From positions 310,001 through 374,000 of the forward strand of contig NZ_MBSO01000023.1 of assembly GCF_001695835.1 (NCBI RefSeq): a stretch of 64,000 bases of DNA, given 5' to 3'. The notes beneath the pieces were generated by a model. The model saw only the letters and a program-made list of their open reading frames with translations, did not search any database and was not told the DNA's origin. Positions 21,795-33,284 of the stretch are shown here, piece after piece; position 1 is the first letter of the stretch; each line of letters starts with the position of its first letter. The stretch is from Ensifer sp. LC11. GTDB lineage: Bacteria; Pseudomonadota; Alphaproteobacteria; Rhizobiales; Rhizobiaceae. The position numbers and the translations under genes were made by a program.

Positions 21795-21810
21795 GTTGAC
21801 AGCTGTCAAC
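21795..21810. repeat. 16-mer palindrome, type A copy 1 (candidate parS)
   Basis: A perfect GTTGACAGCTGTCAAC in the gap between tctC and tctB. It is one of five identical copies in the replication zone and fits GTT-N4-GC-N4-AAC, the form reported for repABC centromere sites. It is the outermost copy, about 6.3 kb beyond the end of repC. Confidence 0.75.
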
Positions 21811-21915
21811 GCGACATCGCCCAATGTGCGAACCCGGCGAGAGCCGGCAATGCCAATGCGGGAGGCCCGTCAACGCCTCGGCCCGGCTACCCCGCCAGCA
21901 ACACATGGGGACACG

Positions 21916-22377
21916 ATGAAGTCACTCTCCTTCGACACCACCAATGCGCTCTGCGGCGGCATCCTGACGGCGGTCGGGTTGTTCTTCGCCTGGCAAGCCT
22001 TCAACCTCGAGCTCGGCACGGCCTTTCGCATGGGGCCTGGCTATTTCCCACTTTTGCTCGCGATCATCCTCACACTTCTCGGCATCGTGATCCTCGTGCA
22101 ATCCGCCCGCGTCCGGGGCGAGCCAATCGGCGCGATCGCTCTGCGTGGCATGATCTTCATCCTGCCGGCACCGGTCTTTTTCGGCCTGACCGTCCGTGGC
22201 CTTGGCTTCGTACCGGCGCTATTCTTCACCGCCCTTATCGCGTGCTTTGCCTCGGGCCGGATGAAACCGCTCATGGCGCTTGCACTGTCGGCGGCGTTGA
22301 CCGCTTTCTCGGTCGCGGTGTTCAGCTACGGATTGGGCCTTCCCTTCCAGCGCTTCGGCCCCTGGGTCCAGTTTTAG
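21916..22377 (+). CDS. tctB: tripartite tricarboxylate transporter small membrane subunit (TctB)
   Basis: A 153-residue DUF1468/TctB protein with four hydrophobic segments and the family motif GTAFRMGPGYFPLLL after the first segment. It forms the small membrane subunit alongside TctA. The ATG at 21916 gives the natural N-terminus; the open frame upstream runs through the palindrome at 21795. It is followed after 10 bp by tctA. Confidence 0.88.
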   Translation: MKSLSFDTTNALCGGILTAVGLFFAWQAFNLELGTAFRMGPGYFPLLLAIILTLLGIVILVQSARVRGEPIGAIALRGMIFILPAPVFFGLTVRGLGFVPALFFTALIACFASGRMKPLMALALSAALTAFSVAVFSYGLGLPFQRFGPWVQF

Positions 22378-22387
22378 GAGACGCGTG

Positions 22388-23893
22388 ATGGAACTCTTCA
22401 GCAATCTCGCGCTCGGCTTTGCGACCGCCGCTTCTCCGGCCAATTTGCTCTTCTGCCTGATCGGCGTTTTGCTCGGCACCTTGATCGGCGTGTTGCCCGG
22501 CATCGGCGCCACGGCGACCATCGCCATGCTGCTGCCGATCACCTTCCAGCTTGAGCCCGTCTCCTCGCTGATCATGCTCGCCGGCATCTACTACGGCGCG
22601 CAGTATGGCGGCTCGACCACAGCGATCCTGATCAACATGCCGGGCGAATCCTCCTCGGCAGTTACTGCGATCGACGGCTACCAGATGGCGCGCAAGGGCC
22701 GCGCCGGCGCAGCACTGGCGATCGCCGCCCTCGGTTCGTTCTTCGCCGGCACCGTCTCGACCTTCCTCGTCGCTGTGTTTGCGCCGCCTCTGACCGAGAT
22801 AGCCCTAAAATTCGGCGCCGCCGAATACTTCTCGCTGATGATCGTCGGTCTCGTCTCCTCGATCGCGCTCGCGCACGGGTCGATCGTCAAGGCTCTGGCC
22901 ATGGTCGCCCTCGGCCTGTTGCTCGGCCTCGTCGGCACCGACATCTATTCGGGCACGCCCCGCTTCACGCTCGGCATCCGGGAATATGCCGACGGCCTGA
23001 ACTTCGTGGCTCTCGCGGTCGGCGTTTTCGGCATCGCCGAAATCCTGCGCAATCTTGAGAACGAACGCACCCGTGAGGTGCTGATGGCCAGGGTTACCGA
23101 CCTGATGCCGACCCGCGACGACTTCAAGCGCATGTTCGCGCCGGTCGTGCGTGGCACCATCATCGGCTCCGCGCTCGGCATCCTGCCGGGCGGAGGCGCG
23201 ATCCTCGCAGCTTTCGCCTCCTATACGGTGGAGAAGCGCGTTTCGGATCGACCGGAAGAATTCGGTCACGGCGCCATCGCCGGCGTTGCGGGTCCGGAAA
23301 GCGCCAACAATGCCGGCGCACAGACCTCGTTCATTCCGCTGCTGACACTCGGCATTCCCGCCAATCCGGTCATGGCGCTGATGATCGGCGCGATGATCAT
23401 CCAGGGCATCGTGCCGGGCCCGAACGTTGCGAGCGAGCAGCCTGCGCTCTTCTGGGGCATCATCGCCTCGATGTGGATCGGCAACCTGATGCTGGTGGTC
23501 TTGAACCTGCCGCTGATCGGGCTCTGGGTGAAACTGCTGAAGATCCCCTATTACGTGCTGTTCCCGATCATCATGGCCTTCTGCTCGATCGGCGTCTACA
23601 GCGTCAACTCCAACGTCTACGACCTCTATGCCGTCGCCTTCTTCGGCCTGGTCGGTTACCTGCTGTTGAAGCTGCGCTGCGAGCCGGCGCCACTGCTGCT
23701 TGGTTTCGTGCTCGGGCCACTGCTGGAAGAAAACCTTCGCCGCGCCATGATCCTGTCGCGCGGTGACCCAACCACATTCGTCACCCGCCCGATCAGCGCG
23801 ATCCTGCTCTCGATCGCAGCGCTGGTGCTCGTTGTGGTGTTCCTGCCGAGCGTGAAAGCCAAGCGCCGGGAGGTTTTTGTCGAGGAGGATTGA
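22388..23893 (+). CDS. tctA: tripartite tricarboxylate transporter large membrane subunit (TctA)
   Basis: A 501-residue polytopic membrane protein with about 11-12 hydrophobic segments and the TctA signatures GVLPGIGATATIAMLLP and ALGILPGGGAILAAF, plus YYGAQYGGSTTAILINMPGE. It forms the secondary-active core that moves the carboxylate with an ion gradient. AGGAG lies 8 nt before the ATG; a GTG three bases earlier is also possible. It is the last gene of the tctCBA operon. Confidence 0.92.
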   Translation: MELFSNLALGFATAASPANLLFCLIGVLLGTLIGVLPGIGATATIAMLLPITFQLEPVSSLIMLAGIYYGAQYGGSTTAILINMPGESSSAVTAIDGYQMARKGRAGAALAIAALGSFFAGTVSTFLVAVFAPPLTEIALKFGAAEYFSLMIVGLVSSIALAHGSIVKALAMVALGLLLGLVGTDIYSGTPRFTLGIREYADGLNFVALAVGVFGIAEILRNLENERTREVLMARVTDLMPTRDDFKRMFAPVVRGTIIGSALGILPGGGAILAAFASYTVEKRVSDRPEEFGHGAIAGVAGPESANNAGAQTSFIPLLTLGIPANPVMALMIGAMIIQGIVPGPNVASEQPALFWGIIASMWIGNLMLVVLNLPLIGLWVKLLKIPYYVLFPIIMAFCSIGVYSVNSNVYDLYAVAFFGLVGYLLLKLRCEPAPLLLGFVLGPLLEENLRRAMILSRGDPTTFVTRPISAILLSIAALVLVVVFLPSVKAKRREVFVEED

Positions 23894-23942
23894 TTCTGCC
23901 CGCCATTTTTGTGATAAAAACAATATAAATCAATAGTTTAAT

Positions 23943-23972
23943 ACGCCGTGCGCCCGACCGGACGCACGGCGT
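23943..23972 (+). terminator. hairpin terminator after tctA
   Basis: A perfect 10-bp stem, ACGCCGTGCG with CGCACGGCGT, and a 10-nt loop, followed by TCTCG. It lies in an AT-rich gap after tctA and is the likely end of the tct operon. Confidence 0.6.
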
Positions 23973-24068
23973 TCTCGTGACTGCGGCATTCTGCCCCTGC
24001 GCGGTTTGCCACATTGAGCTTTGTCAAGCTGCTCGCCTATCTCTGCATCATCGGACAAGCAGGTCAGG

Positions 24069-24479
24069 ATGGGCACAGAGGCGATGACGCGCCGCACCAA
24101 AGCGAGATGGACCGGAGCGCTGCGCACCCTGTGCGCCGTGGCGCTTTTCCTGCTCGGCTTCGCCCATCTCGGGCCAGCGCTTGCCGCACCTCGGCCGGCC
24201 GCCGAACTTGCCCTCTATGCCCTCCCCGATGGCTCTTTGCCGGATATCTGTCAGACCGCAACCGGCGAAGACGGCACGGAAAAGCCTGCTCACAAACATG
24301 TCTGCAGCGCCTGTCGGTTCTTCTGGGCATTGTTACCCGCCCCGCACGACACGGTCGGGGAACCCTTGCAAGCAAGCCGCTCGCCCATAATTACGGAGCG
24401 GGTGGCTCGTTCGACGCCGCAGTTTCACTCGCCAAACGCCAGTCCGCGGGGACCGCCGCAACGCATCGCTCGGCCCTGA
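24069..24479 (+). CDS. DUF2946-like exported small protein
   Basis: About 136 residues. A basic N-terminus and a hydrophobic signal segment (ALRTLCAVALFLLGFAHLG, ending ALAAP) are followed by a metal-site-like HKHVCSACRFFWALLP and a C-terminal PRGPP, as in DUF2946 proteins. ATGs at 24069 and 24084 are both possible; the spacing of AGG favours 24069. Some DUF2946 genes are linked to copper or other metal uptake, but no such gene is adjacent, so the function is open. Confidence 0.5.
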   Translation: MGTEAMTRRTKARWTGALRTLCAVALFLLGFAHLGPALAAPRPAAELALYALPDGSLPDICQTATGEDGTEKPAHKHVCSACRFFWALLPAPHDTVGEPLQASRSPIITERVARSTPQFHSPNASPRGPPQRIARP

Positions 24480-24485
24480 ACCTCT

Positions 24486-24501
24486 GTTGACAGCTGTCAA
24501 C
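24486..24501. repeat. 16-mer palindrome, type A copy 2 (candidate parS)
   Basis: A perfect GTTGACAGCTGTCAAC, 6 bp after the stop of the DUF2946-like gene and 68 bp before the likely start of the Crp/Fnr-type regulator. Since TTGAC-N4-GTCAA also resembles a Crp/Fnr box, a regulatory role at this copy is the main alternative. Confidence 0.7.
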
Positions 24502-24569
24502 ATCTTGCTTCGATGACGGATGCCACCAGGGCGCGACGCCGCCTTGCATCCGCAACGCGGACGTCTTTC

Positions 24570-25268
24570 ATGCCTGAGACCCAATTCACAGCCGCTCAAC
24601 TTGCGGTTCCTCCTCGCACGTCGTCAATAAGGTCGCCTCGCCCAGTCGTGCGAAGCCGCATTGTCGGCGAAAACCACACACTGCTTTATGAAGGCGGCCG
24701 CAACCGCTCGCTCTACCGCGTCGTTGACGGCTGTGTCGTTCTCTCCCAGCTGCTTGACGACGGACGGCGGCAGATCACGGACGTGCTCGGCCCGGGCCGG
24801 CTTTTCGGCTTCACGGTCGATGGCCGCAACATTGCCACGGCCGAGACGCTGAGCGTTGCACGCATCGAGCCCCTGGGCGATGCCGACCTCAATGCGGACG
24901 ACCCGGCTATCGCCCGTGAACTGAAGGCGACGCTCCACCGGATGCAAGCACATGCCACATTGCTCGGCCGCAAGACTGCCAGCGAAAAGGTTGCCAGTGC
25001 GCTGGTCGAACTGGCTCGTTTGTTCAACCGGGCTGCCCGCAACGGTGCCCCTGCCCGGCTGAGTTTCCATCTTCACCTCACACGCGCCGACCTGGCGGAT
25101 TGGTTGGGCCTCACGGTCGAAACCGTCAGCCGTTGCCTCAATCGTTTCAAGCGCGAAGGCCTGATTGATTTCAGCCATCCGAAAACCATGCGGGTGCTTG
25201 ACCCTGAACGCCTTGACGCGACCGCCGGCTTCAGCCGCCAGCGCGCCAATGACGCCGCGCGTCCGTAA
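24570..25268 (+). CDS. Crp/Fnr-family transcriptional regulator
   Basis: About 232 residues. The N-terminal cyclic-nucleotide-binding-type beta-roll (about 35-115) includes LYRVVDGCVVLSQLLDDGRR and VLGPGRLFGF. A dimer helix and a C-terminal winged helix-turn-helix follow, with LTRADLADWLGLTVETVSRC. The N-terminal cysteine cluster of oxygen-sensing Fnr is absent, so it is FixK-like or senses another signal. The HTH resembles FixK/FnrN. The frame opens at 24513, only 11 bp after a 16-mer palindrome and without a ribosome site, so the ATG at 24570 is preferred. Confidence 0.8.
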   Translation: MPETQFTAAQLAVPPRTSSIRSPRPVVRSRIVGENHTLLYEGGRNRSLYRVVDGCVVLSQLLDDGRRQITDVLGPGRLFGFTVDGRNIATAETLSVARIEPLGDADLNADDPAIARELKATLHRMQAHATLLGRKTASEKVASALVELARLFNRAARNGAPARLSFHLHLTRADLADWLGLTVETVSRCLNRFKREGLIDFSHPKTMRVLDPERLDATAGFSRQRANDAARP

Positions 25269-25329
25269 AAATGAATGTACCGGAGCCGATCCGTTTCCCC
25301 TCACGGATCGCCCAAGAAAGGGAAAACCA

Positions 25330-25545
25330 ATGATCGCCAGACTCGTCTATCACGTGCCGGTATTCGGCTGGATGCTGAAGGAGGCCGTGCAAGGATCGCA
25401 AACGGCCAAGGTGCTGTTTCTGATCAATTGCGCCTTGATCTGGCTGCTTGCAATCGTCGCCTTCGGCTATCCGGCCATCATTATTCCGGCACTGATCCTC
25501 GTGCCTGTCATCTTCGCGCTTTTGATCTTGATCACCACGGGCTGA
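25330..25545 (+). CDS. small two-helix membrane protein
   Basis: A 71-residue protein with an amphipathic start (MIARLVYHVPVFGWMLKEAV) and two hydrophobic segments (about 28-45 and 48-69). AAAGGGAAAA precedes the ATG well. It lies 61 bp after the Crp/Fnr-type regulator gene and is probably co-transcribed with it. I do not recognise a family. Confidence 0.6.
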   Translation: MIARLVYHVPVFGWMLKEAVQGSQTAKVLFLINCALIWLLAIVAFGYPAIIIPALILVPVIFALLILITTG

Positions 25546-25602
25546 GGCGACGCCGCTTTCGTTCGATCACAACCAAGGGGATGCGGTCGCTTCGCCGTCG
25601 TC

Positions 25603-26772
25603 TTACAACACACCCCAGCCGCGGTAGCGCCCGCGGCCGGTCATTTCGCGAATGCCGAGTTCACGCACCAGGTTGAGCGCGCCGCGCGGCGTCACGCCGA
25701 CATGCCGGGCAACAAGAGCCGCAGAGACAATCGGCCGCGACAGAACAAGCTCGATCAGCGCCGGCAGGCTGCTGTTGGAACGGCGATCGCGAATGCGCAT
25801 CTCCATCTGGGTCTTTGCGAGAGAGAGCCGATCGAGTTCCTTGAGGCCCAGTTCCGCTGTCACCGTCATCGCTTCCAGAAAGGCGCTCCACCGGGTGAGC
25901 GCATCTTGCGACCGCCGCCGTTCATACCGGACCGTCTTCAGGCCGGTGTTAAAGACAAGCAGATGCGATGTGACCTTACCCCGTGATCGCAAATAGGCGC
26001 TGACCAGCAGCGCACCCAGCCAATGCTGGCGACGCAGTGGTTCCTTCCGGTCCCAGGCATCGAAGAGCAAGGTGGCGCCGAGGCAAGGCGGCAACTGATC
26101 CGCCGCAGCGATTGTCTGGCGCCAATCATCAAGGCGCGCCTCCTCGTCCCATTCCTCGTCAAAGAGCAGACCCAACTGCCCGAGGGGCTCCTGAGCCGTT
26201 GCAAGGGCTGCCCGCTCGGCGACGTCAAGGGCATCCTGTTTGTGGGCGTCAAGCAGATGCTGCGAGCGAGCGATCGCCGCATCGATGGCCGCAAACTCGG
26301 CTGCCATCGGATTGTCTTCCGGTTGCCCGTCCGCCTCGACCTCGGGCCCAGGATCTGAACCGGCGGCCGTGTGAGGCGCTTCCGGGCGCGTTTTGGTTAG
26401 CATCCCGCCGCTATCCGCAGCCGCAAGCTGTTCGCCTCTGAGCGCCGCGATCCCCTGGCTGGACAAGGCCCAGGCAGGCTCCGCCAGCCAGATGCGGCGA
26501 CGAGCCCGCAGCACGGAATGAGCAATGGTCAATTCATGTGTCGGTGCACGGGCATCCATATGCGCATCGTGCAGAACAAGGTCCTCGACGTGCACGAGCT
26601 CGCCTGCGACCCACAGAGCCGCGGCGGCATCGAAAAAGTGGCCGCGTTCTCGATAGCCTTCTTCGACCGCGTGGCGGTTCGTGCGTTCGTCGAGCCGCGC
26701 CAACGCGTCCTCGGCCGAAATCATCAAGGGAATCAAGGCTGGATGGAAAGGATCAGGGGTCTGGTATCGCAT
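25603..26772 (-). CDS. RHE_PE00001-type plasmid protein (DUF1612 plus helix-turn-helix)
   Basis: A 389-residue protein of a family common near repABC origins and elsewhere on rhizobial plasmids. The N-terminal part begins SAEDALARLDERTNRHAVEE. The centre holds RARRRIWLAEPAWALSSQGI and the DUF1612-type segment around LPPCLGATLLFDAWD. The C-terminal helix-turn-helix lies in IVSAALVARHVGVTPRGALN. It is likely a DNA-binding protein. Its role in plasmid biology is not established; the position beside repABC supports its identity, not its function. Confidence 0.8.
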   Translation of the reverse strand: MRYQTPDPFHPALIPLMISAEDALARLDERTNRHAVEEGYRERGHFFDAAAALWVAGELVHVEDLVLHDAHMDARAPTHELTIAHSVLRARRRIWLAEPAWALSSQGIAALRGEQLAAADSGGMLTKTRPEAPHTAAGSDPGPEVEADGQPEDNPMAAEFAAIDAAIARSQHLLDAHKQDALDVAERAALATAQEPLGQLGLLFDEEWDEEARLDDWRQTIAAADQLPPCLGATLLFDAWDRKEPLRRQHWLGALLVSAYLRSRGKVTSHLLVFNTGLKTVRYERRRSQDALTRWSAFLEAMTVTAELGLKELDRLSLAKTQMEMRIRDRRSNSSLPALIELVLSRPIVSAALVARHVGVTPRGALNLVRELGIREMTGRGRYRGWGVL

Positions 26773-27142
26773 TTCGAACTAAGAGTGTTGCGGCGGATAC
26801 GGAACGTAACACGATATTCATTTCGGTCACAGGTGGAAGATTTCTGGCTGGATCGCGGGGGAATGCGGGTTCACAGAAAAGCGCGGCGGCCACCATCAAG
26901 GCGGCTCAGCAAATGGATATCCCCGATGTAACCGCTTCCTCAGGATCTTCCAGGGCAGGGGCCGCAGAACTCACTATCCTGCCCCGGATAGTTGGTCACG
27001 TAAGCTGCCGATCGGGTCACCCACCTCGGCTCTGTCGGCGAGTACAGGCGTTGGCACGTTGACAGCTGTCAACTCCGGCAATGCCCAGGCGACGGACTTG
27101 GCGTTGTCGGACACGGGACCCGGATCTGGTTGGCGCCTTGCG
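26773..27142. other. intergenic region with type A palindrome copy 3
   Basis: A 370-bp gap. It contains the 16-mer palindrome at 27058-27073 and a 7-bp hairpin (GGGCAGG/CCTGCCC, about 26953-26984). It should hold the promoter of the RHE_PE00001-type gene. No gene is supported. Confidence 0.45.
27058..27073. repeat. 16-mer palindrome, type A copy 3 (candidate parS)
   Basis: A perfect GTTGACAGCTGTCAAC, 70 bp beyond the stop of the P-loop kinase gene and 286 bp upstream of the RHE_PE00001-type start. Confidence 0.75.
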
Positions 27143-27652
27143 CTACGCAGTGCGCTCGGCACGGACAATTTCATCAAGAATGGTCTGTGCAGCGGCCTCT
27201 GCTGTTTCGGTGTTCGAAACCACAAGACCGAGCGTCCCCAGATTTCGCGAAAGCGCGTTAAATGTAGCCAACACGGTGTCGCCCAATCTATCCCTCCCTT
27301 CGCGCGTGGCCTCCCGGTGAATGATTTGGTCAACCGGCGCCCAGAGCGTAAAGACATGAACCGATGCGTTTGAAGGAAGTCCCCGGCGAAAGATTGCGAG
27401 CTTCTCCGCGCCTTCGAAAACATAGTCGAACAGGACGCGTGGGGCGCCCATGTCCAGATAGCTCGTGGTAAGCGCGGCCGCCGCTCTGTAGGTTGAGCCA
27501 GCCCCCAGGTGGTCACGGGCATCAGGCGGCGCGAATTGGCGCAAAACGTCGCCAGAGATGTTGATCGTACCGGCTTGGCGTTGCGCAAGCATACGGCACA
27601 CCGTGGTCTTGCCGACACCCGCAGGCCCATTGACAATAACGACTTGCGCCAT
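27143..27652 (-). CDS. P-loop nucleoside/small-molecule kinase-like ATPase
   Basis: A 169-residue single-domain P-loop protein. Walker A is GPAGVGKTT near the N-terminus (MAQVVIVNGPAGVGKTT), and ISGDVLRQFAPPDARDH follows where small-molecule kinases bind their acceptor. A lid-like basic stretch (HREATREGRDRLGDT) sits later. The fold is that of shikimate/gluconate/AAA_33-type kinases. The ATG at 27652 is preferred over the longer frame from 27715, with GGGAG upstream. It lies between two type A palindromes, about 500 bp from the end of repC. The substrate is unknown. Confidence 0.75.
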   Translation of the reverse strand: MAQVVIVNGPAGVGKTTVCRMLAQRQAGTINISGDVLRQFAPPDARDHLGAGSTYRAAAALTTSYLDMGAPRVLFDYVFEGAEKLAIFRRGLPSNASVHVFTLWAPVDQIIHREATREGRDRLGDTVLATFNALSRNLGTLGLVVSNTETAEAAAQTILDEIVRAERTA

Positions 27653-28156
27653 CGGCTGCTTTCTCCCTCGATGGTTTTCTATGGAGCTTCCAACTTTAAC
27701 AGCATCGCTGTGCAATCCAGCGGCTCCCCTTGAACTTCTGTAGGCAAGGGGAGGGCACTATCCGCCAACGTCGTTGACAGCTGTCAACCAGCCGCAGAGG
27801 CTGCGTTCATCGAGGCTTAAAACCGTCACGAAAAACGCTCTGCTTGAACCGAAATCGGGTATATTCCTGCGTCGACAACGTCAATCTTAGGGATCGCTGA
27901 CGACCGTCGCCGAGGGCATTTTCAGCTCGCGTCCGCGAGACGGAACCAAACAGCCCCCTTCCTTCCGAAAGGGCTAGAAACAGCAATGTTTTCTGAGAGA
28001 TGGCGAGGCTTCAAAAACAACCCGGGGCATGATGATAACGTAAAGATATCAACGAATCCCTTCGCCCATAGTGTCCCTCATTTTCCCCTCGCAAACAAGC
28101 GCGCGACAATCTTCCAAGACCGTGGCCCGCAGCAGCAAAGGGCGTGCGGATCTCGT
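27653..28156. other. gap downstream of repC with type A palindrome copy 4
   Basis: A 500-bp gap between the kinase start and the end of repC. It contains the 16-mer palindrome at 27773-27788 and an AT-rich part at 27830-28070. The sequence around 27950-27973 could form a weak hairpin (AGCCC/GGGCT) on either strand that might end the repABC transcript. No coding sequence is supported. Confidence 0.45.
27773..27788. repeat. 16-mer palindrome, type A copy 4 (candidate parS)
   Basis: A perfect GTTGACAGCTGTCAAC, 368 bp past the end of repC. Of the five type A copies it is the closest to the repABC operon on its downstream side, a position where parS has been mapped in some repABC plasmids. Confidence 0.78.
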
Positions 28157-29443
28157 CTATGAACTCATCGCTGTGCCTCCCGCCTGGGCACGCAGCCGCG
28201 CAGACAGCATCGCCGAGACCGTGAACGACTGGCCTCTTGCCCGCCGTGTCAGATCACGCAGATACCCGCCTGCAGAATGAATGTGTTCCGATCGTTCGAG
28301 AAGGCATGCAAGGACGGTCGCAGTCGTTTCGGGACCAAGGGTGGCGCAAGCGTCGTCGTAGGCATCAGGGCTGATCCCGAGCATGGTTTTGACCACGACC
28401 GCTGCCGATAGCAGGTCACGCCAAGTGTCGATACGGCCGCACGGTCCATAATCACGGATCTGCGGGCAGGCTTTGAGCACGACCGGCAGCGCATTTAGCG
28501 GGTTTTGCGCCGGCGGTGGCAACCGCTGTCGGTTCTGAGTTGGCGGATCCTCCGCAAGCTGGCTTCTCAACAGATGTTTCCGCGACCGTTCTTCATCCTG
28601 AAGCTGACGCGAAAACTCGGCTTCAGCCTTTTCACAAGCGGCTTCAGATTCAGAAAGATTATCGGATTCTGAACTCTGTATGTGCCGCTCATTTTGGCGT
28701 TCATTGCCGACCGTATTTTGTGTTTTTAGAAGTGTTTCCAGGCGATTAGTCAGGTCGTCGCGCAGTGCGGCGAGAATGTCCAACGCTCGAACCACTTCGG
28801 CGATCAGCGGTTTGCGCGAAAGAGCCCGATAGACGGCCTGGCACTGCATCTCCGCCTCATCCGCGTAGACAAAATCCGACTGGCGCAGGAGCTCGACAAG
28901 TTTCGCGACGTCACGGCGGCAAAGGCTCAACCGTTCGCGCATCACCTGCAGATAGCGGCGATCAGCTTCCAAGCGTGCTGCTTCAGCTTCGATTTCGGCC
29001 GCGCGGGCAAGCAGCGGTGCAAGGTCGAAGCCGAACGCTTGTCCGATGGCGCCTTTGCGGTCGCGGCGAGCGTAACGCTTGCCGTTGGGGCTATCGCGCC
29101 GCAGGATGAGACCGGCGTCGATAAGCGCTGTGAGGTGCCGCCGGAGTGTCGTTTCGGCCATGCCGTGCGTTCGCAAGGAAAGCTGCGCATTGGATGGAAA
29201 CACGACGAGACCGTTTGCGACGTCCAGTTCGGTCCTTGGATAAAATGACAGCAGTGCGTTCAACACGGCAAGCGAACGATCGGAAACCCCAAGGCTCGCC
29301 TTGGCGACACAAATCGTTCGAAACAATTTCCATTTGTCGACGCTCCCATCGTCGACGGCCGGAGCGCTGGAAAGTTGGCACGCCAACATCCCAAGCGTCA
29401 TCGACCGCCGCCCGAAGGGCGTCGTGACAATCCCACGATCCAT
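28157..29443 (-). CDS. repC: plasmid replication initiator RepC
   Basis: A 428-residue RepC, the initiator of repABC replicons. The N-terminus is the family hallmark (GIVTTPFGRRSMTLGMLACQ), followed by a winged-helix region (NAQLSLRTHGMAETTLRRHL) and a long helical middle. The C-terminal part has CPQIRDYGPCGRI and the conserved RAAGGYLRDLT-like segment (HSAGGYLRDLTRRA). RepC binds the origin, which in this family lies inside the repC coding region, so this gene probably also contains oriV. AGGTGAA precedes the ATG. The 155-bp leader to repB carries the antisense RNA that limits its expression. Confidence 0.95.
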   Translation of the reverse strand: MDRGIVTTPFGRRSMTLGMLACQLSSAPAVDDGSVDKWKLFRTICVAKASLGVSDRSLAVLNALLSFYPRTELDVANGLVVFPSNAQLSLRTHGMAETTLRRHLTALIDAGLILRRDSPNGKRYARRDRKGAIGQAFGFDLAPLLARAAEIEAEAARLEADRRYLQVMRERLSLCRRDVAKLVELLRQSDFVYADEAEMQCQAVYRALSRKPLIAEVVRALDILAALRDDLTNRLETLLKTQNTVGNERQNERHIQSSESDNLSESEAACEKAEAEFSRQLQDEERSRKHLLRSQLAEDPPTQNRQRLPPPAQNPLNALPVVLKACPQIRDYGPCGRIDTWRDLLSAAVVVKTMLGISPDAYDDACATLGPETTATVLACLLERSEHIHSAGGYLRDLTRRARGQSFTVSAMLSARLRAQAGGTAMSS

Positions 29444-29502
29444 TTTTCTTCACCTTTTCCAAGGCAAAAGAAATCCGTTCGCCGAAACGACGTTGAAAAC
29501 TC

Positions 29503-29531
29503 TTGACACCGATTCGCGGAAATGGGATTCT
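29503..29531 (+). promoter_or_regulatory. promoter of the repABC antisense RNA
   Basis: TTGACA at 29503-29508, a 17-bp spacer and GATTCT at 29526-29531, on the strand opposite repC. This is a strong -35 with a weaker -10, placed just where the repABC counter-transcript starts in studied plasmids. Confidence 0.6.
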
Positions 29532-29537
29532 CTAGTT

Positions 29538-29590
29538 GCTACACGAGAGAAGGGTTTCCGCAGCGCTAGTCGTTCGGAAGCCTTTTTCTT
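29538..29590 (+). ncRNA. repABC counter-transcribed antisense RNA (inc-alpha)
   Basis: A predicted transcript of about 50-55 nt in the repB-repC gap, opposite in sense to repC. It ends in an 8-bp stem (GGTTTCCG at 29553-29560, CGGAAGCC at 29575-29582, 14-nt loop) followed by TTTTTCTTTT. In repABC plasmids this RNA pairs with the repC leader, lowers RepC levels and sets copy number and incompatibility. Position, strand, promoter and terminator all fit; the exact 5' end is inferred. Confidence 0.7.
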
Positions 29591-29592
29591 TT
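29553..29592 (+). terminator. Rho-independent terminator of the antisense RNA
   Basis: An 8-bp GC-rich stem with one U-G pair, a 14-nt loop and a run of T residues from 29583. It serves the short plus-strand RNA in the repB-repC gap. Confidence 0.7.
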
Positions 29593-29598
29593 GCTCTG

Positions 29599-30600
29599 TT
29601 AGTCTCCTGTTTCCTCTTGATATTCGAGGTACAGAGATTTGAGCCTCTGCCTCACGAAATCTGCAAAGCCCGGTGCCGCCTTCGTGCTGAAGGCGAGCGT
29701 CGTTCCGCTGTCTGTTTCACGGATCCGGACCGGGGTTGTCCTGTCGGGCGCTACCCAAGGGATTGCCTTGGCACGGACCCTGGAGGCGCTCAGATACGCG
29801 CACAATGCATCAAAGCGCTGATCGCTCGTCGCCTCCTGGAATTTCTTTCCTTGCATGAAGGTGCTTGCGGCCTCGGGTTTGCCGGTCGGATCGAGCAACT
29901 CGGCAAGCTCGAACCAACGGCGTCGACCGATCGATGGCGCCGGGCCGATGGCTTCGATAATGGTAATCGGTAGCCGGCGAATGACCGTGATCATCTTCGA
30001 AAGAGCGGCCTTGTCGACGCCGAGCGCTGACATGATGATCTCACGCGAAAAACCGCGATCCTCAAGACGGGTGGCAAAGAGCGATCGTTCGATGAAAGAG
30101 AGGTCGGCGCGGGCGTTGTTTTCCTGCCCTTGCGAGACGACCAGCTGCTCATCGTTGAGGTCGCGAACAACGGCGCGGACCTTGCCGCCGATTTCGCGGG
30201 CGGCCGCAAGCCGCCGGTGGCCGTAGGCGACCTGATAACGGCCATCGGCGGTCGGGTGCGGCCGCACCAGGATCGGGACCTGTTGTCCGTGCTCGCGAAT
30301 CTGCGCTGCCAGGCTCAATTGCGCATCCGCCGCAACACCGAGGCGATCGGCGACGAAGGACGCATCGACGAGCGCTGGGTCGAGCTCGACGACAGCAAGG
30401 CCCTCGGCGAGTTGTCGTTCCAGCTCCTGGGCGCGTTCAACCTTCTGCGTAATGTTCGACAGCGATCGGGTGATGCCGCCGACGGTTGTCGGTGAACGAG
30501 TAGCCGCATTCAGCCCTGCAATCGGTCGATCGGTGGCGACGCGCTCGACATCCGCATCGATGGAGTCGTCTGAAATGCCGATCAGGTTCTTGCGGGCCAT
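29599..30600 (-). CDS. repB: plasmid partition protein RepB (ParB-like)
   Basis: A 333-residue ParB-family protein of the RepB type. The N-terminal MARKNLIGISDD opening is typical. The ParB nuclease-like domain carries LAAQIREHGQQVPILVRPHP and YGHRRLAAAREIG, with the box in SQGQENNARADLSFIERSLFA. A helix-turn-helix lies in EIIMSALGVDKAALSKMITV, and a C-terminal RepB-specific region follows. It binds parS and works with RepA to segregate the replicon. It lies 3 bp after repA. The 16-mer palindromes around the operon are its most likely targets. Confidence 0.95.
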   Translation of the reverse strand: MARKNLIGISDDSIDADVERVATDRPIAGLNAATRSPTTVGGITRSLSNITQKVERAQELERQLAEGLAVVELDPALVDASFVADRLGVAADAQLSLAAQIREHGQQVPILVRPHPTADGRYQVAYGHRRLAAAREIGGKVRAVVRDLNDEQLVVSQGQENNARADLSFIERSLFATRLEDRGFSREIIMSALGVDKAALSKMITVIRRLPITIIEAIGPAPSIGRRRWFELAELLDPTGKPEAASTFMQGKKFQEATSDQRFDALCAYLSASRVRAKAIPWVAPDRTTPVRIRETDSGTTLAFSTKAAPGFADFVRQRLKSLYLEYQEETGD

Positions 30601-30603
30601 GGA

Positions 30604-31803
30604 TTACTTCCTCCCCCAGACCTTGCGGACCAGGTCCTCGATCTCGCCATTGACGAGGTTGAGCGAATCCATGGCGCGATCATAGGTGCCGCGGACAAAT
30701 TGGGAGCGCTCGACCTCGTAGAGCGTTTGCTTGGTCACGCCGGCGTCGGAAATGGCGGTCGACTTCACCATGGCATTCTGCAGCATGCGATTGCCGAAAA
30801 TGGCGCGCATAAAGCCAGTCATCTGGCTTTGAGGACCATCATTCGGCTCAAATCGGGTTCCGAGATAGCGCATCCAGTCGTAGCTGGTTCGACCGCCGGC
30901 CTTCTCGACCACGCTCATCAACTCGCTCGTCATCGACAGGAACTGCGACATCGACATCACGTCGAGCATCTGCGGATGCACGGTGATCAAAACCGAGGTT
31001 GCGGCACAAAGGGCCGACATGGTGAGAAAGCCGAGCTGTGGGGGGCAGTCGATAACGACGATGTCGTAGAAGCTTTCGATTTCCGCCAGCACGTCGCCGA
31101 TGCGGGCGAAGAAGAGGGTTTCCGCCGCCCCACCGGTCATCATCGCCTTCGGCGTCTCATGCTCGAACTCCATGAGCTCGAGATTGCCGGGAATGAGATG
31201 CAGATTGGCGGTGTAGGTGGACCGGACAATGTCGGTAATGGCGCGCGGAGCGTCATAGCGGATCGCTCCATAGAGCGTCTCGCCTTCGCCGACATCCAGT
31301 TCCGGCTGATGGCCGAAAAGGGCTGAGAGTGAGGCCTGCGGATCGAGGTCGATCGCGAGCGTTCGGTAGCCGCGAAGCGCCAGATATTGAGCAAGATGGG
31401 CCGATGTCGTTGTCTTTGCCGACCCGCCCTTGAAATTCATGACCGACAGGACCTGCAGCTTTTCGTCGCCACGCCGGTGCGGGATGTACTTGCCGGATTT
31501 TCCGCCTTCGTCGAGAACGCGGCGGATGCGTTCGATATCGTCGATCGCGTACATGCGCCGACCGTTTGACAACGGCGCCGGGCCATGGCCCTCTGAGGCC
31601 ACTTGCCTGAGATAGCCTTCGCCGATTCCGATGAATGCGGCTGCTTCGGCAGGGCTGAAAAGGCGCATTGCCTTTTGCGCTTGTGGGGGGAAGATTTTCT
31701 TTTGATGCTGTTGCAGCTGATGCGCAAGTTCCAAAGCGTCGGCAGCCAGAAGCGTCGGCAGATGCTCCTGTACGTCCTCGCCTTGAATTTTCTGTTGCAA
31801 CAT
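30604..31803 (-). CDS. repA: plasmid partition ATPase RepA (ParA-like)
   Basis: A protein of about 399 residues. The N-terminal helix-turn-helix region (FSPAEAAAFIGIGEGYLRQV) serves autorepression. The deviant Walker A KGGSAKTTTSAHLAQYLALRG, with its signature lysine, is followed by the ParA motifs AIDLDPQASLSALFG and DIVVIDCPPQLGFLT. ATP-driven RepA moves RepB-parS complexes and represses the repABC promoter. The frame opens at 31836; ATG 31803 gives the usual family length, but 31836 cannot be excluded. It is the first gene of the minus-strand operon. Confidence 0.95.
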   Translation of the reverse strand: MLQQKIQGEDVQEHLPTLLAADALELAHQLQQHQKKIFPPQAQKAMRLFSPAEAAAFIGIGEGYLRQVASEGHGPAPLSNGRRMYAIDDIERIRRVLDEGGKSGKYIPHRRGDEKLQVLSVMNFKGGSAKTTTSAHLAQYLALRGYRTLAIDLDPQASLSALFGHQPELDVGEGETLYGAIRYDAPRAITDIVRSTYTANLHLIPGNLELMEFEHETPKAMMTGGAAETLFFARIGDVLAEIESFYDIVVIDCPPQLGFLTMSALCAATSVLITVHPQMLDVMSMSQFLSMTSELMSVVEKAGGRTSYDWMRYLGTRFEPNDGPQSQMTGFMRAIFGNRMLQNAMVKSTAISDAGVTKQTLYEVERSQFVRGTYDRAMDSLNLVNGEIEDLVRKVWGRK

Positions 31804-31859
31804 CGATATCCCCGAAAACTGCGCAAAAATCGTCATATCCGGACAATATGCGCAGATGC

Positions 31860-31889
31860 ACTATGCTCCGATTCGGAGCGGTTTTACAA
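31860..31889 (-). promoter_or_regulatory. likely repA promoter with operator in the spacer
   Basis: On the minus strand, TTGTAA (31889-31884), an 18-bp spacer and CATAGT (31865-31860). The spacer is filled by the inverted repeat GCTCCGA-A-TCGGAGC (31879-31865). Repeats in this place are typical autorepression operators, here presumably for RepA with or without RepB. A second perfect palindrome, CTCTAATTAGAG, lies farther up at 32007-32018. Confidence 0.5.
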
Positions 31890-31942
31890 ATGCATAGCGA
31901 TTTGCGCCGATGTCCCGCGGTGGCGACTGGAGGGGAGCTGAA

Positions 31943-31958
31943 GTTGTCCGCGGACAAC
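31943..31958. repeat. 16-mer palindrome, type B copy 1
   Basis: A perfect GTTGTCCGCGGACAAC (18 bp with the flanking A and T), 140 bp upstream of the repA start. It also fits GTT-N4-GC-N4-AAC but has a different core from the five type A copies. It may be a second parS-like class, or an operator of the neighbouring GntR-type regulator. Confidence 0.7.
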
Positions 31959-32100
31959 TCCAGCAATGGGACACGCCGCGGCGACGATCTCGATACGACC
32001 GGATATCTCTAATTAGAGCATAGAATTTATAGACTATTGACGGCTGGCTTGATTGTGTCACGATTGTGTCGATCAACGACGTGACGCGAGAAGGTTCGTT

Positions 32101-32286
32101 ATGTTCTATCTTGGTGGAATGACCCTCGGTTACCTTGCGCCGCCTCCGCCAAAGGCGACGAAGGCAATACGGCAGCCACGAACGGAGGTCGAACCGACGA
32201 CGGCTGACAACGCCGCGTGCGAAGAATCCGACCGCGATCAGGAATGGGCACGCGCTTTTCTCACGCCCTGGCACCTCCTGTACTGA
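32101..32286 (+). CDS. possible 61-residue protein between repA and the HutC-like gene
   Basis: A short open frame, MFYLGGMTLGYLAPPPPKAT onward, with GAAGG six bases before the ATG. It lies between the type B palindrome at 31943 and the type A palindrome at 32328, in the same direction as the HutC-like gene. There is no domain. The ribosome site is the only support, and an antisense frame also exists. Confidence 0.3.
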   Translation: MFYLGGMTLGYLAPPPPKATKAIRQPRTEVEPTTADNAACEESDRDQEWARAFLTPWHLLY

Positions 32287-32327
32287 TCCGTGCCAGTTTG
32301 CCCGCGTGAGGCGCTGGCGGCGCTGGC

Positions 32328-32343
32328 GTTGACAGCTGTCAAC
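32328..32343. repeat. 16-mer palindrome, type A copy 5 (candidate parS)
   Basis: A perfect GTTGACAGCTGTCAAC, 85 bp upstream of the HutC-like start and about 525 bp upstream of the repA start. It is the only type A copy on the repA side of the operon. Confidence 0.75.
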
Positions 32344-32428
32344 ATCGTCGACGGATGCCGTCGTGGAAAAGCGTGTTTCAGCGAGAGAAGGGCTGTTTCG
32401 CGGCCGCGAATTGATTAAGTTCGCTGTC

Positions 32429-33205
32429 ATGGACACCAAGCAAGACCAAACCGTTTCAGATGAGACACAGGGAGCCGTTGCCGATCAAGGGCAACCCTTG
32501 TCGCTGCACCAGCGCATTCTCGGCGACGTCGAAGGGCGTATCCTTTCAGGGGAATGGCCGCCGGGGCACCGCATCCCCTTCGAGCACGAATTGACCGAGC
32601 AATATGATTGCTCGCGGATGACCGTGAACAAGGCGCTGACGGAACTCGTCAAGCGAGGACTGATCGAGCGTCGACGCAAGTCCGGGAGCTATGTCACGTT
32701 TCCGCAGGTTCAGTCCGCCGTCATGGAGATCCACGACGTCAAGCTCGAGGTTCAATCGTTAGGCCTCGATTACAGCTTCCGGCTGGACGAGCGAAGGGTG
32801 CGCAAGGTCGAGGGGAGGGACGTCGAACGGTTGGATCTTCCCGCGTCGGCAAAGCTGCTGGAGTTAACATGTCGGCATTTTGCCGGCAGCCGTCCTTTCT
32901 GTTTCGAGGAGCGGCTGATCAGCCTTTCGGCCGTGCCGGAAGCAGAGGCGGAACTGTTCGAGACGTCGGCACCCGGTTCGTGGCTGCTCGGCAAGGTGCC
33001 GTGGAGCACGGCCGAACACCGCATTCGCGCCGTCGCGGCCAACAAGTCGGCAGCACAAGCGCTCGATATTTCCACCGGCACCGCCTGCCTGGTGATCGAG
33101 CGGCGCACCTGGAGCGGTCGCGCGCCGGTCACGCATGTGCGCCTGACCTATCCCGGCGATCGTCATGAACTCGTCGCGCAATTCGCACCGAGCCCAATCG
33201 GCTAG
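32429..33205 (+). CDS. GntR-family regulator, HutC (histidine utilisation repressor) type
   Basis: A 258-residue regulator. The N-terminal GntR winged helix lies at about residues 24-92 (LHQRILGDVEGRILSGEWPP, then CSRMTVNKALTELVKRG). A UTRA effector domain follows with CRHFAGSRPFCFEERLI, VPWSTAEHRIRAV and GTACLVIERRTW, closely like HutC. HutC represses histidine breakdown and responds to urocanate. No hut enzyme gene is present in the window, so the ligand is open. It stands beside repA, between two type B palindromes, and has a type A palindrome in its leader. Confidence 0.85.
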   Translation: MDTKQDQTVSDETQGAVADQGQPLSLHQRILGDVEGRILSGEWPPGHRIPFEHELTEQYDCSRMTVNKALTELVKRGLIERRRKSGSYVTFPQVQSAVMEIHDVKLEVQSLGLDYSFRLDERRVRKVEGRDVERLDLPASAKLLELTCRHFAGSRPFCFEERLISLSAVPEAEAELFETSAPGSWLLGKVPWSTAEHRIRAVAANKSAAQALDISTGTACLVIERRTWSGRAPVTHVRLTYPGDRHELVAQFAPSPIG

Positions 33206-33228
33206 CCAACTGCGCCTGATGCGCGGTA

Positions 33229-33244
33229 GTTGTCCGCGGACAAC
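33229..33244. repeat. 16-mer palindrome, type B copy 2
   Basis: A perfect GTTGTCCGCGGACAAC (18 bp with flanks), identical to the copy at 31943. It lies 23 bp after the stop of the HutC-like gene, in the short gap to the convergent cyclase gene. Confidence 0.7.
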
Positions 33245-33284
33245 TACCTGCTTTTCAAGATCGTGACCGGGCTGGCGGACGGTC

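Follow-up and report, generated by a model that had tools for sequence, protein, structure and literature searches.

Two classes of parS-like palindrome interleave at the repABC origin of a pSymB-type Ensifer replicon and probably serve two different RepAB pairs

Which partition protein reads a group of identical palindromes that lies scattered around a repABC operon and extends well outside it? The question is raised by a stretch of 64,000 nucleotides (the window) from Ensifer sp. LC11, C23:310001-374000 in a genome of 6,217,212 bp and 73 contigs. An initial annotation had noticed a palindromic 16-mer here (type A, GTTGACAGCTGTCAAC) in five identical copies and proposed that they form a dispersed centromere, tacitly that of the neighbouring RepB protein (RepB1). 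The copies are indeed dispersed, intergenic, restricted to one replicon region and conserved in the genus, and the multi-site centromere stands as far as the observation goes and probably holds for function too; the assignment to the local RepB is probably wrong. From sequence comparison we think it likely that the origin region of this pSymB-type replicon is served by two ParABS systems, one in which the local pair RepAB1 acts through a second palindrome (type B) and one in which an orphan pair, RepAB2, acts through type A. This reading is built directly on the sites, their conservation, the co-occurrence of the two pairs, RepB phylogeny and the intact, selected state of the repAB2 genes, from which we infer the binding of RepB2 to A, a partition function and an evolutionary history. 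The type A copies lie at the expected places, with 0 mismatches in each:

21795..21810, unstranded, type A palindrome GTTGACAGCTGTCAAC, between tctC and tctB
24486..24501, unstranded, type A palindrome, between tctA and a Crp-family gene
27058..27073, unstranded, type A palindrome, between a DUF1612/HTH_13 gene and an AAA_33 gene
27773..27788, unstranded, type A palindrome, between the AAA_33 gene and the repC 3' end
32328..32343, unstranded, type A palindrome, between repA and hutC

Open reading frame and family tables agree that all five are intergenic, including the copy in the tctC/tctB gap. They flank repABC on both sides, with the majority on the repC side, over a spread of 10.5 kb. The claim that the 64 kb hold no other copy is correct and can be widened, as none appears even with up to 3 mismatches allowed. 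Nor is chance a plausible source: shuffled sequence is expected to give 0.12 matches, and 0 of 100 shuffles reached five. A genome-wide count, put forward as a check on whether the 16-mer is equally dense elsewhere, returned exactly five copies in 6.2 Mb, all in the window, and 0 for the reversed-pattern control. A second palindrome of the same length, type B (GTTGTCCGCGGACAAC), was absent from the initial annotation and has two copies, the only two in the genome:

31943..31958, unstranded, type B palindrome GTTGTCCGCGGACAAC, begins 107 bp 5' of the repA start
33229..33244, unstranded, type B palindrome, 3' of hutC and inside a 24-bp perfect palindrome (33225-33248)

The half-sites of A and B have six of eight bases in common. 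All seven sites (five A and two B) match the repABC-family parS consensus GTTNNCNGCNGNNAAC, the Cevallos consensus as quoted in PMC9040568 (published work is cited here by PubMed Central number). This general form occurs at 14 places in the genome versus 10 for its reversed control, and the only perfect palindromes among the 14 are the seven of the A/B cluster. The suggested resemblance of A to the repABC parS form (GTT-N4-GC-N4-AAC) proved sound: the same 16-mer is the parS of Paracoccus aminophilus plasmid pAMI4, bound by the pAMI4 RepB in gel shifts (PMC9040568).

Both site classes are conserved throughout the genus. In 16 of 16 genus genomes, all A copies form one cluster on one contig (three to five each, 69 in total), and all B copies are likewise clustered on one contig (one or two each, 25 in total); reversed controls gave 0 for both. 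Seven orthologous sites were compared across 5-8 loci. Identity is 92-100% in the 16-mer and 32-71% in the 20-nt flanks: the 16-mers are kept by selection while their flanks drift. For the A sites, identities of 16-mer and flanks are 100% and 71% at 21795, a syntenic place shared by loci L005, L006, L020, L021 and L022; 100% and 59% at 24486 (6 loci); 98% and 32% at 27058 (6 loci); 92% and 38% at 27773 (6 loci); and 97.5% and 40% at 32328 (5 loci; L021 has no A here). The B sites give 100% and 36% at 31943 (8 loci) and 100% and 32% at 33229 (6 loci). An origin of the A cluster by chance, or as an inert relic repeat, has next to no probability in our view, given the shuffles, the retention of the cluster in all 16 genomes and the conservation of the 16-mers far above their flanks. 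Not every copy is perfect in the relatives, with one or two changed bases at one or two sites each in L005, L006, L019, L020 and L021. At L005:17221 (Ensifer adhaerens E-60), A is changed symmetrically to GTTGCCAGCTGGCAAC with the palindrome kept, possibly a compensated change. In Sinorhizobium meliloti 1021, pSymB carries two A copies (53,601 and 54,646) and one of B (58,913); stretches L024 and L025, which end at the record end, contain B and no A. In all 16 genomes the copies of both classes are confined, in the manner of parS, to their cognate replicon near the rep locus, but A lies far from its likely cognate genes.

The operon that the sites surround is encoded on the minus strand:

30604..31836, minus strand, repA (RepA1), ParA-type ATPase (TIGR03453, 631 bits)
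29599..30600, minus strand, repB (RepB1), ParB-type protein (TIGR03454, 395 bits)
28157..29443, minus strand, repC, replication initiator (NF040974, 478 bits)

Origins of repABC replicons are located inside repC (PMC9040568). By DNA comparison the region matches pSymB-type megaplasmids of Ensifer and Sinorhizobium in 280 plasmid records, of which the best five align over 83-85% of 7 kb with 82-83% identity. To learn which palindrome goes with RepB1, we sampled its best 80 relatives out of 492, each with flanks of at most 10 kb. All 28 Ensifer/Sinorhizobium loci in this sample (RepB identity at least 69%) have A, and all 28 have B shortly before repA, in 11 cases as a close doublet. Outside this group, A was found within up to 10 kb of 0 of the 52 RepB1 loci. 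Perfect B occurs at 14 of these 52. At 35 of the other 38 a related palindrome or near-palindrome lies before repA, within repB at about +743, or at both places; none was found in L092, L096 and L099. The position inside repB is fixed in many Rhizobium and Neorhizobium loci (L103, L106-L109, L111-L118 and others); L106, L107, L118 and L131 have the same palindrome variant inside repB and upstream of repA, and the forms differ in other loci. Since B or related palindromes occur at RepB1 loci outside the group and A at none of them, we take the B family to go with RepB1. Were A the centromere of RepB1, this clade should use it elsewhere too, and in the loci sampled it does not.

We therefore turn to where else A occurs. 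Within the family, 39 of 199 genomes have A, five of them in the Ensifer/Sinorhizobium group (G000, G001, G009, G060 and G152; in G060 and G152, A adjoins RepB1). From the 34 A-bearing genomes outside the group we fetched 19 A places, which cover 18 of the 34. At 14 of these 19 places the stretch contains repA-repB-repC (in L143 the contig ends within repC), and each of the 14 RepB proteins belongs to what we call the RepB2 clade, closest to an orphan RepB2 encoded on contig C3 of LC11. As for the other five, L148 and L161 have a RepB2-type repB on the same contig, about 70 and 142 kb off; L156 is on the same contig as L155; in L154 a RepA fragment at the contig edge is all there is; and L149 has no rep genes in its stretch, the RepB2-type gene of its genome lying on another contig. 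A tree of 127 RepB proteins, made by a quick method without bootstrap and with long branches flagged, recovers a RepB2 clade of 37 rows with a Shimodaira-Hasegawa-like approximate likelihood ratio (SH-aLRT) support of 100. It comprises the 14 proteins with A in cis, 20 of orphan type, and L195, L198 and L199, where repC adjoins. The RepB1 clade has 88 rows (SH-aLRT 98), within which the 32 that have A group on a single branch (95). The RepB2 clade thus uses A in cis at 14 of 14 such places and in Neorhizobium galegae (below), if not at every RepB2-type locus.

The orphan pair itself is intact in LC11:

C3:86173-87432, RepA2, intact RepA-family protein
C3:87420-88508, RepB2, intact RepB-family protein

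Together they are a ParA-type ATPase beside a ParB-type protein, with TIGR03453, TIGR03454, PF13614, PF02195 (ParB_N) and PF07506 (RepB) above cut-off. No RepC match was found beside repAB2 in 12 of 12 Ensifer/Sinorhizobium copies checked (L030, L223-L229, L233-L235 and L237); in these copies RepAB2 is not a complete repABC operon, which has repC downstream of repB. RepB2 is free of internal stops in 16 of 16 genus genomes, and both genes are under purifying selection, with ratios of nonsynonymous to synonymous substitution rates (dN/dS) of 0.03-0.05 for repA2 and 0.10-0.15 for repB2 in four comparisons each. In 9 of the 16 genomes (G001, G003, G005, G006, G007, G008, G009, G010 and G014) RepB2 is on the same contig as the A cluster, at distances along the contig from about 38 kb (G014) up to 713 kb (G005). 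Plasmid records tell the same story. When the best 60 records for RepB1 were compared with the best 60 for RepB2, many of them from S. meliloti strains, 56 of the 60 RepB1 records were also among the RepB2 records, with the two genes 119-464 kb apart (median 127 kb); the other four (NC_017326, NZ_CP065022, NZ_CP121660 and NZ_CP133152) also have a RepB2-type match, which makes 60 of 60. On S. meliloti pSymB, repAB2 lies at 1,611,544-1,613,796. Knock-out evidence for it was not found in the literature searched, and the pSymB deletions given in the portions of the published reports available to us (635,940-869,645; 1,256,503-1,307,752; and 1,529,711-1,572,422) all miss it.

Two side observations concern this pair. 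A DNA translocase of the FtsK/SpoIIIE type adjoins repAB2 in the five Ensifer copies checked (L030:9779-12703, directly after repB2 on C3); in S. meliloti it precedes the pair by about 1 kb (L223:3998-6838); plasmid pNCHU2750a has an annotated ftsK about 40 kb from its RepB2-type repABC (L245:8240-10846). The translocase is possibly linked in function with segregation. In L196 (G076:C4), a RepB2-type frame has one internal TGA, and A sites lie on another contig beside a RepA fragment, which looks like decay.

Traces of A also survive at or near RepB2-type genes. A sequence one mismatch from A, GTTGACACCTGTCAAC, lies about 100 bp from the repB2 start in 7 of 7 Sinorhizobium copies fetched. It is identical at every base in the six compared, with coding flanks 53% identical, a conservation that protein constraint alone explains poorly; it is absent from repB2 in 5 of 5 Ensifer copies (L030, L225, L229, L233 and L234). 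In 4 of the 14 cis loci (L143-L146) the 3' end of repA contains a perfect, in-frame A; the corresponding site has 1-7 mismatches in the other ten and four in three orphans compared. Neorhizobium galegae pHAMBI1141a, found by RepB similarity and so independently of A, carries repABC1 at position 1, its repB containing B. A repAB2 (best match) follows at 115 kb, with no RepC match within 20 kb and three perfect A copies at most 1.8 kb upstream. It may represent an intermediate state, with two systems on one chromid and the second centromere still beside its genes. On pNCHU2750a, a RepB2-type repABC (best match) has two perfect A copies at 91,064 and 92,006, about 87 kb downstream of repC; the remote parS of this plasmid is shown in Fig. 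4 of PMC9040568.

Several observations weigh against giving A to RepAB2. The pAMI4 RepB, in the literature searched the one protein shown to bind A (in gel shifts, PMC9040568), falls outside the RepB2 clade, on a long branch whose place is unsure. Recognition of A is therefore not confined to that clade, and RepB1 might recognise it as well; at the columns that separate RepB1 from RepB2, the pAMI4 protein is RepB2-like at 7, RepB1-like at 6 and neither at 14. The count of 14 of 14 comes from loci chosen for having A. Four RepB2-type repABC loci found by protein similarity have no perfect A in the stretches fetched (L231, L232, L240 and L243), and two more have only a one-mismatch copy (L230 and L244). 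A and B half-sites differ at just two of eight bases. RepB2 and the A cluster are on different draft contigs in 7 of the 16 genus genomes, LC11 included (C3 vs C23). Finally, two other gene families, DUF1612 and HutC, likewise track A.

Some of these points would suit a different arrangement, in which RepB1 reads both palindromes and uses A mainly for partition and B for the repA promoter. A surrounds repABC1 in 28 of 28 in-clade loci, both half-sites fit the quoted form GTTNNCNGCNGNNAAC (PMC9040568), and a RepB from outside the RepB2 clade binds A in vitro (PMC9040568). We nevertheless regard this arrangement as unlikely. It leaves the absence of A from the 52 outside RepB1 loci without an answer, as it does the RepB2-type identity of all 14 repABC neighbours of A outside the group, the presence of RepB2 in all 16 genus genomes and the A-type sites at RepAB2 itself in Sinorhizobium and N. 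galegae. A reading with a single RepB, attractive in that both palindromes fit one consensus, was lowered on the finding that A sites in other genera adjoin RepB2-type repABC.

The two gene families that travel with A suggest another rival, namely that A copies are operators of a regulator that moves with the locus and have nothing to do with partition. The candidate regulators are encoded close to the sites:

25603..26772, minus strand, RHE_PE00001-family protein (DUF1612 and HTH_13), the rival candidate A-site binder
32363..33205, plus strand, HutC/GntR-family regulator, between the two B sites and adjoining an A site

DUF1612 is near 27 of the 28 loci with A (the 28th stretch ends early) versus 6 of the 52 without, and HutC near 25 of the 28 Ensifer/Sinorhizobium loci versus 0 of the 52 others. 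Still, the genes adjoining A change between species while the 16-mer stays, 16 of the 19 A stretches outside the group have no DUF1612 or HutC match, and the same 16-mer is bound by the pAMI4 RepB (PMC9040568). We rate an operator role as very improbable. The RHE_PE00001-family protein may be noted separately as a possible third player.

At the B sites the evidence points to the local system. The site at 31943 is the probable parS of the operon's own RepB. Upstream of repA the B 16-mer is identical in 12 aligned replicons and its surroundings are little conserved; four of the 12 were found through the B pattern itself, so the count is partly one of choice. The alignment also contains a separate conserved block, nearer repA:

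31820..31854, unstranded, pair of TGCGCA motifs (31820-31825 and 31849-31854)

This pair is, by inference from the alignment, a likelier candidate for the RepA operator than B. B itself as RepA operator is not favoured, given the separate TGCGCA block and the same or related palindromes inside repB in other genera. B as a HutC/GntR operator was rejected as the main reading because B persists before repA where no HutC match exists (L049, L050 and L051). In Neorhizobium alkalisoli (L098), three B sites lie at -3656, -2014 and -1359 from repB, over 2.3 kb, so dispersal occurs in class B too. The genome has only four ParB_N proteins, one of them on C23, a count that we take as favouring the two-system reading. 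Around its second repABC (G000 C14:57001-92000; L028 and L029), 35 kb contain no GTT-N4-GC-N4-AAC palindrome, so nothing points to that operon as the owner of A or B, and the parS that it uses probably has a different form.

How might two systems share one origin? ParB-type proteins load at parS, spread along the DNA and are then moved by ParA-type ATPases. In the two-system reading that we prefer, system 1 would be the local repABC, with RepB1 loading at the B sites (31943 and 33229) beside its own promoter. System 2 would be the orphan repA-repB without repC: RepB2 dimers would load on the five A sites and be moved by RepA2. Both would act on one origin region, even with the RepAB2 genes at a distance of tens to hundreds of kb. 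With RepB1 at B and RepB2 at the A sites that flank repC, two dissimilar complexes would form within 11.5 kb around one origin, the dispersed A sites would widen the loading zone, and RepAB2, once re-aimed, could act at the origin wherever its genes sit. Most simply, an ancestral cointegrate or a captured second repABC would have lost repC, and its parS would have become established beside the surviving origin. On balance we lean towards extending this picture to pSymB-type chromids at large, which would then be segregated by two unlike ParABS systems whose centromeres interleave at a single origin. The partition system of a captured plasmid would have been retained without its replication gene and re-aimed at the origin of the host replicon, where it acts from afar on two to five A sites.

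Each component has a known counterpart. The 3parS locus of pAMI4 has the same 16-mer in several copies, about 11.5 kb from repC, with a role in incompatibility and stability (PMC9040568). That plasmid, as described in the available part of the report, has one RepB, one site class and its extra sites in one 2-kb non-coding locus (PMC9040568), whereas here the A copies are spread between genes over 10.5 kb, interleaved with B, and the likely cognate repAB is elsewhere. On pNCHU2750a the centromere is also far from its genes; there repC stands beside repAB, whereas RepAB2 has no repC and its likely sites surround the origin of another system. The repABC of S. meliloti pSymA likewise has a multi-site centromere on a large rhizobial replicon, with six parS upstream of its own repA and, in the portions available, no second partition pair described (PMC9040568, PMC13274422). 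A 259-kb Martelella plasmid resembles the composite reading in having two repABC modules on one replicon; going by the title of its report both are functional RepABC modules, unlike here, where one has only repAB (PMC5613091). In the literature searched, the A 16-mer was met only in PMC9040568, within its accessible portion, and the B 16-mer nowhere; nor did we meet an account of pSymB having another repAB that uses A, though MacLellan 2006, Koper 2016 and Cevallos 2008 may contain one. The parts are therefore of known kinds, and the arrangement as a whole (an orphan repAB and its centromere interleaved at the origin of another system, throughout Ensifer and Sinorhizobium) was not found in that literature.

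S. meliloti pSymB is a model chromid. A study of its removal credits the repABC operon with both replicating and segregating it (PMC4207669), and it has a late place in the replicon order (PMC6090056). If the two-system reading is true, pSymB segregation, incompatibility and this late place would need reinterpreting, and the scattered parS-like palindromes would be explained. The reading also pairs each of two RepB clades with a class of site in a way that can be tested, RepB2 with A and RepB1 with the B family. Adjacent RepB1 and RepB2 complexes could couple operon control, origin clustering and segregation order. More broadly, RepAB2 would be a natural case of a partition system outliving its replicon of origin, and its capture could be a step from plasmid toward chromosome-like replicon.

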